DNA from: a virus
Length of the DNA stretch: 24,648 nt
Direction: 5' to 3' (one strand)
Virus record (IMG/VR): IMGVR_UViG_3300032296_000305
Span: 1-24,648 of that record
Below are positions 3,010 to 10,185 of this stretch, in pieces. The first letter of the stretch is position 1; every line of letters starts with the position of its first letter. The notes beneath the pieces were generated by a model. The model saw only the letters and a list, made by a program, of their open reading frames with translations, did not search any database and was not told the DNA's origin. The translations under genes and the position numbers were made by a program.

Positions 3010-4191
3010 TTACAAAATTACCCCATTCTTCTTGATAACCAATGAAGGGTCAAGTTTTTTCATCCTGTCTATAATCACTTGGCAGTATTTAGGGTCAAGT
3101 TCCATACCATAGCATTTGCGTTTAAGTTGATGTGAAGCAACCATTGTTGTTCCACCACCTAAATATAAATCAGCAATTAAATCATTATCCTTACCCCATT
3201 TATTAAAGAACCAATTAGCTAACTCAATAGGTTTTTGTGTTGGGTGTACTCTGCCTTTAGTATCTTGGGATGGCATACCAAAGATTCCTGCCCATTTAAC
3301 CCTTGCAATATCTCTCTTATGTTTATTTTTTGACCAACATAATTCAAATGTACTTCCATACATCTTATCTGAACTTTTATCCTCAGTAATATCATCATTG
3401 CCATTTGCTCTTTTATCCCATACTACCCAACTGCCATCATTTTTATTAGGAAGCAACTCTGCAAAATAATCTGCACCCCAAATAAATATTTCCTTGCAAT
3501 CATTAAAACAAGCAAATATTGTATTAATTAATTCTTCTGTAAAATCCTCGTGATCCCCTTTTACATTATCATATTTCTTACCACCTATGCCACCTTTAAA
3601 TATTTCACTCTTCATTCCACTATAATCAGCATCTAACTTCATTCCATAAGGCGGGTCGGTAAATACCATATCAGCCTTTTGTCCGTTCATTAACTTTGCC
3701 ACTTGGTCGCTATCTGTACTATCCCCACAAAGTAATCTGTGTTCGCCTATCTCAAATAAATCTCCTAATACTATGTCCGTTTCGCTTCCTCCATCAGGAA
3801 CGGCAAAGTTATCTTCTTCTGCTTCTAATACGTTTGCATCAAAGTTTGGTATATCTAATCCCCATTCGGTAAGTAATTGCTCATCCCAATTATTAGCTAA
3901 GTCATCCCAATCCCATTCTCCATATCCTACGTTATCCTTAACTATAAATTCTTTCTTTTGTTCTTCGGTTAGTTCTTTTGCTTGTTTTACAGGTACATCC
4001 GTAAGTCCAGCTTCAATACAAGCCTTTAGCCTCATATTGCCACCTAATACGATATTGTTCTCATCTATTACAATAGGTCTAAGTTCAAGCATCTGTGGGA
4101 AGTCTTGGATTGACTTAACCAGCTTCTTAAATTTGTCATCCTTGATAATTCTTGGATTGTTTGGGTTAGGTTTGATTTCGTTGATGTTCAT
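3010..4191 (-). CDS. ParB-like nuclease domain / DNA methyltransferase fusion
   Basis: This 393-aa protein joins a ParB/sulfiredoxin-like N-terminal domain (residues 1 to about 115) to an N6-adenine/N4-cytosine DNA methyltransferase. The N-terminal part has NPNNPRIIKDDK, LRPIVIDENNIVLGGNMR and the LKACIEAGLTDVPV segment typical of ParB-N domains. The methylase part has the catalytic DPPY at 179-182 inside MVFTDPPYGM and the SAM-binding DLYLGGGTT at 341-349 followed by GMELDPKYCQVIIDR. DPPY before the SAM motif is the beta-class order. VHPTQKPIELANWF before the SAM motif is also typical. It probably modifies phage DNA against host restriction or marks it before packaging. It starts on a TAATG overlap with the zinc-ribbon gene and ends 23 bp before terS. 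Confidence 0.93.
   Translation of the reverse strand: MNINEIKPNPNNPRIIKDDKFKKLVKSIQDFPQMLELRPIVIDENNIVLGGNMRLKACIEAGLTDVPVKQAKELTEEQKKEFIVKDNVGYGEWDWDDLANNWDEQLLTEWGLDIPNFDANVLEAEEDNFAVPDGGSETDIVLGDLFEIGEHRLLCGDSTDSDQVAKLMNGQKADMVFTDPPYGMKLDADYSGMKSEIFKGGIGGKKYDNVKGDHEDFTEELINTIFACFNDCKEIFIWGADYFAELLPNKNDGSWVVWDKRANGNDDITEDKSSDKMYGSTFELCWSKNKHKRDIARVKWAGIFGMPSQDTKGRVHPTQKPIELANWFFNKWGKDNDLIADLYLGGGTTMVASHQLKRKCYGMELDPKYCQVIIDRMKKLDPSLVIKKNGVIL
3013..3042 (-). promoter_or_regulatory. Consensus Bacteroidetes promoter for terS-terL-portal
   Basis: On the minus strand TTG (3042-3040) is followed after 19 nt by TAATTTTG (3020-3013), which matches the -33 TTG / -7 TAnnTTTG layout of Bacteroidetes sigma-A promoters. 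It lies inside the last codons of the methyltransferase gene, and its last base adjoins that gene's stop codon. Transcription would start near 3007, about 20 nt before the terS start codon. It is the best-spaced promoter in the window. Confidence 0.65.
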
Positions 4192-7516: not shown

Positions 7517-7762
7517 TTAATCGTTTAAATAGTTTTCAAATACTTCAAATTTATCTGCCAACATTTGATAAGGAATGTAATCCCTTTTAGGTTGATCTAA
7601 TAACTCTGGGAAGTGTTTTTGTTTATGTAGTTTAAGTCTATACTTAGCTGCATTTAATTGATGAATCATTTCCGATGCGTTTTGTGGGTAGCTTGTATCT
7701 ACTTTGTAATTCCAAAATTTAACTGCTTCTCTTAATTCCCATAGTCTTTTTAATGGTGTCAT
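7517..7762 (-). CDS. 81-aa helical protein, function unknown
   Basis: The protein begins MTPLKRLWELREAVKFWNYK and continues with helical, Lys- and Gln-rich sequence (MIHQLNAAKYRLKLHKQKHF, then PYQMLADKFEVFENYLND). It overlaps the end of the annealase gene by 4 bp (ATGA), so it is translationally coupled to it. Genes in this position often encode recombination accessory proteins, but nothing in the sequence shows that. No nuclease motif is visible, so it is not an obvious exonuclease partner. Confidence 0.7.
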   Translation of the reverse strand: MTPLKRLWELREAVKFWNYKVDTSYPQNASEMIHQLNAAKYRLKLHKQKHFPELLDQPKRDYIPYQMLADKFEVFENYLND

Positions 7763-8478
7763 AAAGATTCTTTTTTCTTGGTAAATAATTTAGTTACATC
7801 TTTAGTTGCAAGTTCGCTATTTAGTGCGTAAAGTTGGCTTAATTCAGTAGTATTTATGCACAAATCAATAGCTAACTCTAAGTCCTCTACGTTATCGTGT
7901 GTCTTAATGTAGGTTGGAGTTTCTTCTGTTGATTGAGCCATCTCATCTCCAGTATAAAGTCCGCTCAAATCTAACGGGTAGCTTTTTCGGAGCGCCAGAG
8001 CTTCCGCCACCTTGCTCAACATCGTGTGGGGCATCTTCGCCCATAAACCCATAGGTTTACCATCGTTTGTCTTTTGGCAATATTCATCCCAGTATGCAAC
8101 TCCAACGGCTGCCTCATACCTTGTATCGCCATTAAACCTAAATACTGATACCTTACAAGATATTAACTTACCATCTTGTTCTACAAAGATAGGTTCGCTT
8201 TGCCCTCCGTAATTTCCGCTTCTTTCAGCGATTACTCGGAAGCCATCAATACTTGTTTGGATTGTCATTTTTTTACTCCATCCGTTTTGTGTTTTTACGT
8301 TCCTGTGGATGCAATAAATTTGTCTTGATAATGCATCAAGTCCTGTCCTTTGGGCTTGATAAAGAAATAGTTTTAGTTCGTCAACTGTTGCCTCTGGAGC
8401 AATCTGTGATTTTACTAACTCTACTTGATCTTTCGTGTACGAAAGTTGTGGCTTTTTAGCCAGTTGTTGTTCGCTCAT
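7759..8478 (-). CDS. bet: Single-strand annealing protein, Redbeta/RecT family
   Basis: This 239-aa protein matches the lambda Bet branch of RecT-like annealases, which bind single-stranded DNA and pair complementary strands during phage recombination and replication. Visible signature: ELKLFLYQAQRTGLDALSRQ (residues 34-53), IYCIHR, MTIQTSIDGFRVIAERSGNY (71-90), then VAYWDEYCQ and WAKMPHTMLSKVAEALALRK in the C-terminal half of the core. Length is close to lambda Bet (261 aa). The last 45 residues are an acidic/helical tail, likely the partner-binding part. NinG is also present. No partner 5'-3' exonuclease is evident in the window. Symbol by similarity. Confidence 0.9.
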   Translation of the reverse strand: MSEQQLAKKPQLSYTKDQVELVKSQIAPEATVDELKLFLYQAQRTGLDALSRQIYCIHRNVKTQNGWSKKMTIQTSIDGFRVIAERSGNYGGQSEPIFVEQDGKLISCKVSVFRFNGDTRYEAAVGVAYWDEYCQKTNDGKPMGLWAKMPHTMLSKVAEALALRKSYPLDLSGLYTGDEMAQSTEETPTYIKTHDNVEDLELAIDLCINTTELSQLYALNSELATKDVTKLFTKKKESL

Positions 8479-8529
8479 ATTGGTTGGTTTTAGAGTTTAA
8501 AATTAGGTACTTTAGTGTTAATAACCAAA

Positions 8530-8967
8530 TTAAAGTAGCACATTTAAGTTGAAAATGTCGTTTTTTATGGTATCGTCAAACTTATTTGATAGCTGACCCC
8601 TGATCTTAGAGATTGAGTGTAAAACTGTGGTTCTATCCCTATTGAACAATTTTGCTATTTCCTCGCCATTTAACGCGGTCTTTTCCTTAGTGAAATACAT
8701 AGTCATTTGCCTTGCCAAAGTAACCTCCTCACCCCTGTATTTAGACATCATTTGTCCGTACTTAATTTGGTAGTAATTGCATATCTTTTCAGCCATTTGG
8801 ATTGCATACTCCTTTTGTTGTTCTTTGTCCATTCGTATTGTTTTTATGTTTAAATGTTTGTCTAATAAATCCTTTAATTGATTTATCTCTTGCTTTAGTT
8901 TTTTGTTCTTATCTCGCAAAACTTCTATTTCAAGTTCTGCCATATATGTTTTGTGTACTTCTCTCAT
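8530..8967 (-). CDS. DnaA domain IV-like DNA-binding protein
   Basis: This 145-aa protein has an N-terminal coiled coil (LEIEVLRDKNKKLKQEINQL, residues 12-31) and a C-terminal domain resembling the DnaA box-binding domain IV: KYRGEEVTLARQMTMYFTKE (76-95), GEEIAKLFNR (101-110) and DRTTVLHSISKI (111-122). The last segment mirrors the DnaA signature in which an Arg-Asp-His-Thr-Thr-Val helix reads the box; here the His is Arg112. There is no AAA+ ATPase part. It probably recognises a phage origin or operator, or competes with host DnaA, and could dimerise through the coil. It starts on a TAATG overlap with the previous gene. Confidence 0.85.
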   Translation of the reverse strand: MREVHKTYMAELEIEVLRDKNKKLKQEINQLKDLLDKHLNIKTIRMDKEQQKEYAIQMAEKICNYYQIKYGQMMSKYRGEEVTLARQMTMYFTKEKTALNGEEIAKLFNRDRTTVLHSISKIRGQLSNKFDDTIKNDIFNLNVLL

Positions 8968-9263
8968 TAGAAATGTAAAAGGTTAATTGGTAACATAAAG
9001 TCCTCTGTTAAGGTATAAAGGTCTAAGATTAGATAATGGTAGCTTTTAAGGATTCTTCTCTGGATGTCATTCATCCTTGCAATCTTAATAAGTAAGTCCT
9101 CCTCGCTAATCATTGTCCTTGTAGTGTCCAATCCTCGCCTCCATTCTGCAAGGTCAGCCTCAAATAGATTTTGCCTTCCTTGTGCTTGTTTTAGTAGTTC
9201 CAGTAACATTGTTGCTCTTTTGTGCAACTTTAGTTGTTTCTCCTGATAGATTAGATTGCTCAT
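8967..9263 (-). CDS. 98-aa helical protein, function unknown
   Basis: The protein is almost all helical: MSNLIYQEKQLKLHKRATML, LLELLKQAQGRQNLFEADLA, then EEDLLIKIARMNDIQRRIL and a hydrophobic end DFMLPINLLHF. No family recognised. The first 104 bp overlap the ribbon-helix-helix gene in another frame. Starting at the inner Met (9209) would cut that overlap to 50 bp. The TAA overlaps the ATG of the DnaA-like gene as TAATG, which supports the frame being expressed. Confidence 0.65.
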   Translation of the reverse strand: MSNLIYQEKQLKLHKRATMLLELLKQAQGRQNLFEADLAEWRRGLDTTRTMISEEDLLIKIARMNDIQRRILKSYHYLILDLYTLTEDFMLPINLLHF

Positions 9264-9387
9264 ATTGTTTTAGGATTTTGTAAACCAACTTACTTAAAGT
9301 GATACCTTTAGTGTCGGCTTCGGTTTGTAAATTAGTCTTGATCTGTTGGCTGACTAGCGTTGTAATAAGTGTTTTCATAGATTTCAT
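9160..9387 (-). CDS. Ribbon-helix-helix (CopG/Arc-type) protein
   Basis: The first 45 of 75 residues fit a ribbon-helix-helix fold: MKTLITTLVSQQIKTNLQTE (a beta strand then helix A, counted from Met4), ADTKGITLSKLVYKILKQYE (the turn and helix B). Such proteins dimerise and insert the strand pair into the DNA major groove as repressors. The remaining 30 residues are a Ser/Thr/Lys-rich tail of low complexity. The gene is overlapped by its upstream neighbour for 56 bp and by its downstream neighbour for 104 bp, so only 68 bp are unique to it. Start could be Met1 (9387) or Met4 (9378). It is a good candidate autoregulator of this operon. Confidence 0.65.
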   Translation of the reverse strand: MKSMKTLITTLVSQQIKTNLQTEADTKGITLSKLVYKILKQYEQSNLSGETTKVAQKSNNVTGTTKTSTRKAKSI

Positions 9388-9503: not shown

Positions 9504-9632
9504 CTAAATGTTTTGAAGGATTGCGGTAATTAAAAATGCCACGCATACAATAATAAATGCGTAAAGTGGTTTGATGCTTTCTTGAGCGTAGCGTTCGTTT
9601 GCCTTTTCTTGTTGGGTTTTTAGCCTGTTCAT
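9504..9632 (-). CDS. 42-aa membrane protein, first gene of early operon
   Basis: An ATG at 9632 gives MNRLKTQQEKANERYAQESI, then KPLYAFIIVCVAFLITAILQ and NI with TAG at 9506-9504. A charged N-terminal helix is followed by one transmembrane segment (about residues 22-40). It lies 24 nt below a TATCTTTG promoter box and one base before the next ATG, so it is the leading gene of the replication operon. A longer frame covering the same DNA in another phase (9693-9499) has unlikely composition and is taken as a shadow. Function unknown; leading small membrane proteins can be involved in superinfection exclusion, which is only speculation here. Confidence 0.65.
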   Translation of the reverse strand: MNRLKTQQEKANERYAQESIKPLYAFIIVCVAFLITAILQNI

Positions 9633-9656
9633 ATTGGTTGTTTTGGTTTATGAAAT

Positions 9657-9690
9657 CAAAGATAGGGCATAAACTTATAACTTTATCAAA
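9657..9690 (-). promoter_or_regulatory. Promoter of the early/replication operon
   Basis: The minus strand has TTTG (9690-9687), then 22 nt, then TATCTTTG (9664-9657), in agreement with the Bacteroidetes -33/-7 layout, though the spacing is at the long end. Transcription would start near 9651, about 19 nt before the first ATG at 9632. A 13-bp palindrome TTATTTTAAATAA lies just upstream at 9699-9711. Confidence 0.6.
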
Positions 9691-9800: not shown

Positions 9801-9832
9801 AAAAAACCACCCCAATAAGACTAAAGGGGTGG
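9801..9832 (-). terminator. Strong hairpin terminator (element C)
   Basis: On the minus strand CCACCCC (9832-9826) pairs perfectly with GGGGTGG (9813-9807) across a 12-nt loop, followed at once by six T (9806-9801). This is a textbook intrinsic terminator for leftward transcription. It lies about 50 nt below the -7 box at 9861-9868. It contains the shared 8-mer CCACCCCA on the plus strand (9807-9814). Confidence 0.8.
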
Positions 9833-9860
9833 CTAAACCTAAGTTCTCCAATATGAAATG

Positions 9861-9868
9861 CAAATATA
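9861..9868 (-). promoter_or_regulatory. TATATTTG promoter box between two terminators
   Basis: The minus strand reads TATATTTG, a match to TAnnTTTG, directly after terminator D and 28 nt before terminator C. No TTG is visible at -33, where the terminator stem lies. If active it would make an RNA of about 50 nt ending at element C, or a leader that reads through to the early operon. Confidence 0.45.
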
Positions 9869-9871
9869 TAT

Positions 9872-9900
9872 AAAAAACCCCACCTTTTTAGGGATGGGGA
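9872..9900 (-). terminator. Hairpin terminator (element D) after the HExxH gene
   Basis: On the minus strand CCCCA (9899-9895) pairs with TGGGG (9882-9878), extended by two C-G pairs beyond a one-base bulge, loop about 7 nt, followed by six T (9877-9872). It lies 16 nt after the stop of the gene ending at 9916 and closes the lysis/phosphoesterase transcription unit. Confidence 0.8.
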
Positions 9901-9915
9901 ACTATGAACCAACAA

Positions 9916-10185
9916 CTATTTAGAACCATCTTGCAATGGCGTATCATTAGAATTGTCTACCATTCGGTATCCTTGCTGCCAAAGAACCTTACATAAAGTT
10001 ACGCTTTTCTCAATAATGGCTTCTTCTTCATCCATTGGATTGAGGATATGTAAGCACTCGTGCAACAGGATTTCAAGATGCTTTTTGCCTTTTAGTCGTG
10101 AGTCAATATAAACAACACCATCACTTTCAGCAATGCCGTGAGCCTGTTCCCTTCCTAATTTCCTATGTATTACTTTAATCTTCAT
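9916..10185 (-). CDS. Small HExxH putative metallopeptidase-like protein
   Basis: This 89-aa protein has HLEILLHECLHILNPMDEEE at residues 36-55: an HExxH zinc motif (His42, Glu43, His46) with Glu55 or Glu60 downstream as possible third ligand. VVYIDSRLKGKKH before it resembles the strand and helix that lead to the active-site helix in small phage metallopeptidases (SprT/ImmA-like). It is about half the usual size of those families, so it may be a minimal peptidase or a zinc-binding protein without activity. The start overlaps the previous gene by 11 bp, and terminator D follows the stop. Confidence 0.7.
   Translation of the reverse strand: MKIKVIHRKLGREQAHGIAESDGVVYIDSRLKGKKHLEILLHECLHILNPMDEEEAIIEKSVTLCKVLWQQGYRMVDNSNDTPLQDGSK

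Follow-up and report, generated by a model that had tools for sequence, protein, structure and literature searches.

Known Phage Antisense RNAs and Comparison with the Locus

Several short RNAs encoded by phages are known to pair with mRNAs. The C4 antisense RNA of phages P1 and P7 is encoded upstream of its target on the same strand, and acts through two short blocks, one over the ribosome-binding region and one upstream that gives specificity; small changes give separate specificities (PMC5320573). C4 is about 77 nt, has three stem-loops, pairs with two loops, and is cut from a longer transcript by RNase P. P22 sar RNA, lambda OOP RNA, and lambda aQ RNA are reported as antisense RNAs to single genes of the same phage, which lower their expression (PMC12197685). 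Trans-encoded phage sRNAs act on mRNAs encoded elsewhere; VpdS of phage VP882 is an Hfq-binding sRNA that affects host and phage RNAs, and PreS of lambda acts on host dnaN (PMC12197685).

Here, a locus that is likely to encode an antisense small RNA of about 55 nt was analyzed in an uncultured phage, probably of Bacteroidetes. Like C4, the predicted RNA is encoded on the same strand as its predicted targets and has two short pairing blocks. It differs from C4 in that it has one terminator hairpin, is predicted to pair by its open 5' leader, has a predicted start box of its own, and has several predicted early targets. No match to the Rfam C4 model was found at gathering threshold in the window or in six relatives. 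It is not a cis-encoded antisense RNA of the sar/OOP type, which is encoded on the strand opposite its target with long complementarity; the locus is on the same strand as the early genes, away from its predicted targets, with short imperfect pairing (blocks of 6-10 nt) to several start regions. Compared with VpdS and PreS, the predicted targets are the phage's own early start codons, in a group where translation is not driven by Shine-Dalgarno pairing. No Rfam family corresponds to the RNA; sub-threshold hits, such as anti-hemB (E 0.09), were judged to be chance. No paper describing such an RNA in phages of Bacteroidetes was found in the literature that could be searched, which did not include subscription papers.

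Organization of the Locus

The window, the whole stretch of DNA analyzed, is a complete IMG/VR virus record of 24,648 bases. All its main genes lie on the minus strand: tail, lysis, and phosphoesterase genes (about 24,600 to 9,916), then a gap, then small ORFs, a DnaA C-terminal domain protein, RecT, a replication protein, NinG/Rap, a ParB-N/methyltransferase fusion, small (probable) and large terminase, and portal. The first block is designated as late and the second as early, as inferred from gene content. The DnaA-related protein (8530-8967, minus strand) is 145 aa long and includes the DNA-binding C-terminal domain of DnaA (Bac_DnaA_C, E 8e-19) without the ATPase part. A ParB-N-like domain is joined to a DNA methyltransferase domain in one protein (3010-4191, minus strand). 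The conserved 89-aa protein upstream of the gap (9916-10185, minus strand) has an HExxH-like motif (LLHECLH) and no PHROGs or Pfam match; hundreds of relatives occur in IMG/VR.

The original prediction placed a promoter box between two same-strand terminators in this gap, and its coordinates were confirmed. The features of the gap and the predicted targets are as follows.

9872-9899, minus strand: terminator D, the end of the late transcription unit (stem 9899-9878, T-tract 9877-9872)
9861-9868, minus strand: predicted TAnnTTTG (-7 type) promoter box TATATTTG of the predicted small RNA
9801-9856, minus strand: predicted small RNA of about 55 nt (start inferred from the spacing of the box, end in the T-tract of terminator C)
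9848-9857, minus strand: seed 1, TTCATATTGG
9834-9839, minus strand: seed 2, GGTTTA
9801-9833, minus strand: terminator C, GCCACCCC (9833-9826) / GGGGTGG (9813-9807) with six T (9806-9801)
9657-9690, minus strand: early promoter TTTG-N22-TATCTTTG, with a predicted start near 9652
9628-9652, minus strand: predicted target 1, the 5' UTR and start codon of the 42-aa first early gene (9504-9632), with TAAACC (9650-9645) and CCAATATGAA (9637-9628)
8470-8502, minus strand: predicted target 2, the start region of recT (7759-8478), with CCAATATGA at 8483-8475
9255-9287, minus strand: predicted weaker target 3, the start of the 98-aa gene (8967-9263), CAATATGA
8959-8991, minus strand: predicted weaker target 4, the start of the DnaA-C-domain gene (8530-8967)

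Terminator D was found by a terminator scan and folds at -11.1 kcal/mol (z -1.3). Terminator C was missed by the simple scan because its loop is 12-13 nt, but it folds at -17.8 kcal/mol (z -3.3), with 0 of 200 shuffles as good. TAnnTTTG alone is not rare (45 in the window against 39 expected), and the sigma-70 promoter scan is not informative for Bacteroidetes-type promoters. The significance of the box comes from relatives. In Flavobacterium psychrophilum, TAnnTTTG lies at -12 to -5 (PMC9723704). With this spacing, the RNA would start at about 9856, one base into an invariant stretch, and would be about 55 nt long, rather than the roughly 50 nt originally proposed.

No ORF with an ATG start lies between the box and terminator C. 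A leader peptide was rejected, because the leader has no ATG and the TTG frame closes in relatives with other stems. The 28-nt region between box and terminator, noted in the original prediction only as having no gene, is the most informative part of the block.

Conservation among Related Phages

Searches with RecT, the phosphoesterase, and the 89-aa protein gave some 300 loci, several per contig. No cultured phage is close; in the phage collection, the 89-aa gene has no relative and the phosphoesterase has only distant ones. One relative lies on a contig binned with a Chitinophagaceae genome, which fits a Bacteroidetes host, as do the TAnnTTTG promoters.

In 117 of 147 distinct sequences downstream of the 89-aa gene, the same block recurs: terminator D, TAnnTTTG, a leader of 16-40 nt, a hairpin, and a T-run, predicting RNAs of about 50-70 nt. 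The leaders were grouped into families of unlike sequence, and the window belongs to family I. Among 28 distinct 79-nt sequences of family I, variation is seen in the D stem, in the second n of TAnnTTTG, in the three bases after the box, and in few other places, while TTCATATTGG and TTAGGTTT do not vary. Scans of IMG/VR by leader sequence alone gave 85 copies in the fetched loci. All 85 have TAnnTTTG exactly 3 nt upstream, 84 of 84 readable copies have a T-run downstream, and 84 of 85 have terminator D upstream.

The stem of terminator C changes in a compensatory way, with 25 double-change cells against 8.6 +/- 2.2 in shuffles, and 3 or fewer when the partner is slid. The conserved loop TTTAGTCTTATT of terminator C is not considered the functional part, because several relatives replace stem and loop entirely while the leader stays. 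In two loci (L023 and L035), an HNH-endonuclease-like ORF is inserted in the loop of terminator C, just before AGTCTTATT, with a replacement hairpin and T-run in front of it, so the small RNA would still be terminated.

The promoter is the main doubt. The TTG/TTTG element that is probably usual around -33 in a Bacteroidetes sigma-A promoter is absent: none of 117 copies has TTG 17-23 nt upstream of the box. In nearly all, TAAAAA in the loop of terminator D (TAAAAAG in the window) sits at that place, so the promoter may be weak or may need another factor. The RNA could therefore be late-specific, but this is a guess. A TTTG-N17-24-TAnnTTTG promoter is found downstream of terminator C in 84 of 117. 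In four loci (L182, L183, L184, and L212), a further leader family keeps TTCATAGC...AATGGTT and terminator C, with complementarity to early starts, but has no TAnnTTTG directly upstream; the promoter may differ. In locus L042 (4040-4200; also L131, L277, and L307; IMGVR 3300011337_000119), a second box-RNA-terminator unit (TATATTTG-CATCGTAGAGTTTTGGAGATAG...GCAACCATAAAAAGTTGCTTTTTTT) is inserted between terminator D and the usual small RNA, so that two small RNA genes stand in tandem. The second RNA of L042, considered as another early antisense RNA, scored z -4.5, but its best sites scatter over internal ATGs, and its targets are unclear.

Complementarity between the Leader and Early-Gene Starts

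The start of the leader, TTCATATTGG, is the reverse complement of CCAATATGAA, which spans the start codon of the first early gene; at the RNA level, UUCAUAUUGG pairs with CCAAUAUGAA. The end of the leader, GGTTTA, is the reverse complement of TAAACC at the predicted 5' end of the same mRNA, whose 5' UTR would be only about 20 nt. recT has a similar site. CCAATATGA occurs three times in the window, against 0.27 expected: at the starts of the first early gene and of recT, and, reversed, in the small RNA. The duplex energies are -16.0 kcal/mol for the first early gene, -15.7 for recT, -13.0 for the DnaA-C gene, and -11.4 for the 98-aa gene, while terminase and portal starts are not matched. In a two-strand fold with the first early gene or recT, the terminator hairpin stays intact.

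A whole-genome scan for the best duplex sites was too noisy to be useful in the window itself, where the best sites were not at starts, and start-restricted tests with shuffles were used instead. Against dinucleotide shuffles of the leader, the mean z for the three best early starts is -3.8 to -4.3 in each of five leader families. For upstream (late) genes it ranges from -1.4 to +1.3, and is near zero or positive except -1.4 in family I and -0.9 in family IV. When each leader family was tested against the early starts of each family, leaders of four of the five families paired best with cognate starts; the cognate set is the best in the rows of I, II, IIb, III, and V, while family IV, with three members, does not separate from III. 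Against random segments of the same phages, the leaders rank in the top 0.5% when pooled (50 of 10,400). In the window itself the effect is weaker than in most relatives (rank 6 of 400 same-phage segments).

Sites of -15 kcal/mol or better are present at 13.1% of early starts, 1.9% of internal ATGs, 0.8% of other places, and 0.6% of the opposite strand. At -13, the comparison of starts with internal ATGs gives an odds ratio of 4.5 (P about 1e-17), although the loci are related and the P value is nominal. CAATATGA averages 3.87 per early region on the sense strand against 0.09 on the other strand in family I.

The orthologous recT genes (about 62% identical proteins) were compared between families I and III; in families II, V, and VI the start could not be placed by the weak alignment. 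The start region is aaccaaccaatATGA in family I and taaaccattagttATGA in family III, and the leaders differ to match: the cognate energies are -16.2 and -15.4, and the crossed energies are -10.8 and -7.6. The RNA and its target sites have changed together across at least five phage lineages. The families share ancestry, and the independent events number about five or six, not hundreds.

Possible Function of the Small RNA

The conservation of the block, the covariation of terminator C, and above all the complementarity between the leader and early-gene start codons strongly support one of the two originally proposed functions, a very short regulatory RNA. The other, a terminator that an antitermination factor must overcome, has no positive evidence. 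It is likely that the segment is a phage-encoded antisense small-RNA gene, although this rests on sequence alone, and transcription of the RNA by itself, its action in trans, and repression are inferred. RNA polymerase would start at the TAnnTTTG box and stop at terminator C, giving a single-stranded 5' leader and a terminator hairpin. The leader is complementary in two blocks to the start regions of early-gene mRNAs, with UUCAU... over the start codon and a second block over the leader just upstream. Bacteroidetes ribosomes do not recognize Shine-Dalgarno sequences, and initiation is tuned by secondary structure and by bases just upstream of the start codon (PMC9976891 and PMC6847099). Thus, masking this region should block initiation and shut down the first early gene, recT, and others. 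The position directly behind the late block suggests an early-to-late switch or a brake on early expression.

Other explanations are considered unlikely. The leader might work in cis: when late transcription reads through, it could fold onto the start region of the first early gene and keep early genes silent on late transcripts, as C4 is made from the same transcript as its target. Leader and target do lie on the same strand, about 200 nt apart in the window. However, terminator C directly after the leader cuts such a transcript, a TAnnTTTG box precedes the leader in every copy found by leader sequence, and recT, 1.3 kb away, and other starts match too. It is similarly improbable, but cannot be excluded without functional data or a search of host mRNAs from the unknown host, that the RNA activates or stabilizes early mRNAs, or that its main targets are host mRNAs. 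Pairing covers the start codon itself, which normally represses, and the leader tracks the phage's own start sites.

Slightly less likely are plain tandem terminators that insulate the late from the early operon, with the box incidental or a weak spurious start. Both hairpins sit at the boundary between late and early genes, TAnnTTTG is frequent by chance, and the -33 TTG is absent, but an insulator does not need an invariant 24-nt stretch between its hairpins, nor one that is complementary to early start codons and changes with them. DNA sites for one DNA-binding regulator in opposite orientation are very unlikely; the matched words are short (9-10 bases) and recur at several early genes, but the matches sit on start codons inside an operon and not at promoters, are almost absent from the opposite strand, come in two blocks with variable spacing, and are joined to a structured RNA terminator that covaries.

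A broader role can be proposed only tentatively. One small RNA may control a whole set of early genes that share a start-region tag (TAAACC...CCAATATGA in family I), as a phage-wide post-transcriptional timing switch. In family I relatives (e.g., loci L080, L012, and L015), small-ORF cassettes between the early promoter and the 42-aa gene are each preceded by TAAACCAAAACAACCAATATG and often followed by AGGGGTGCGNCTANTCAACGCACAATTTT, and the start tag seems to travel with the cassettes. Under this hypothesis, newly acquired early gene cassettes carry the tag and join the regulon on arrival, and RNA and tag co-evolve, giving each phage lineage its own private code.

Little is known about gene timing in uncultured phages of this kind. 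If the antisense function is true, early shut-off works through an RNA that masks start codons, which suits hosts that do not use Shine-Dalgarno signals, and the co-changing RNA/target pairs offer a ready natural test of how such pairing evolves. It also gives a simple signature for finding such RNAs in other phages: a start box wedged between two terminators at the late/early boundary, with a leader complementary to early starts.
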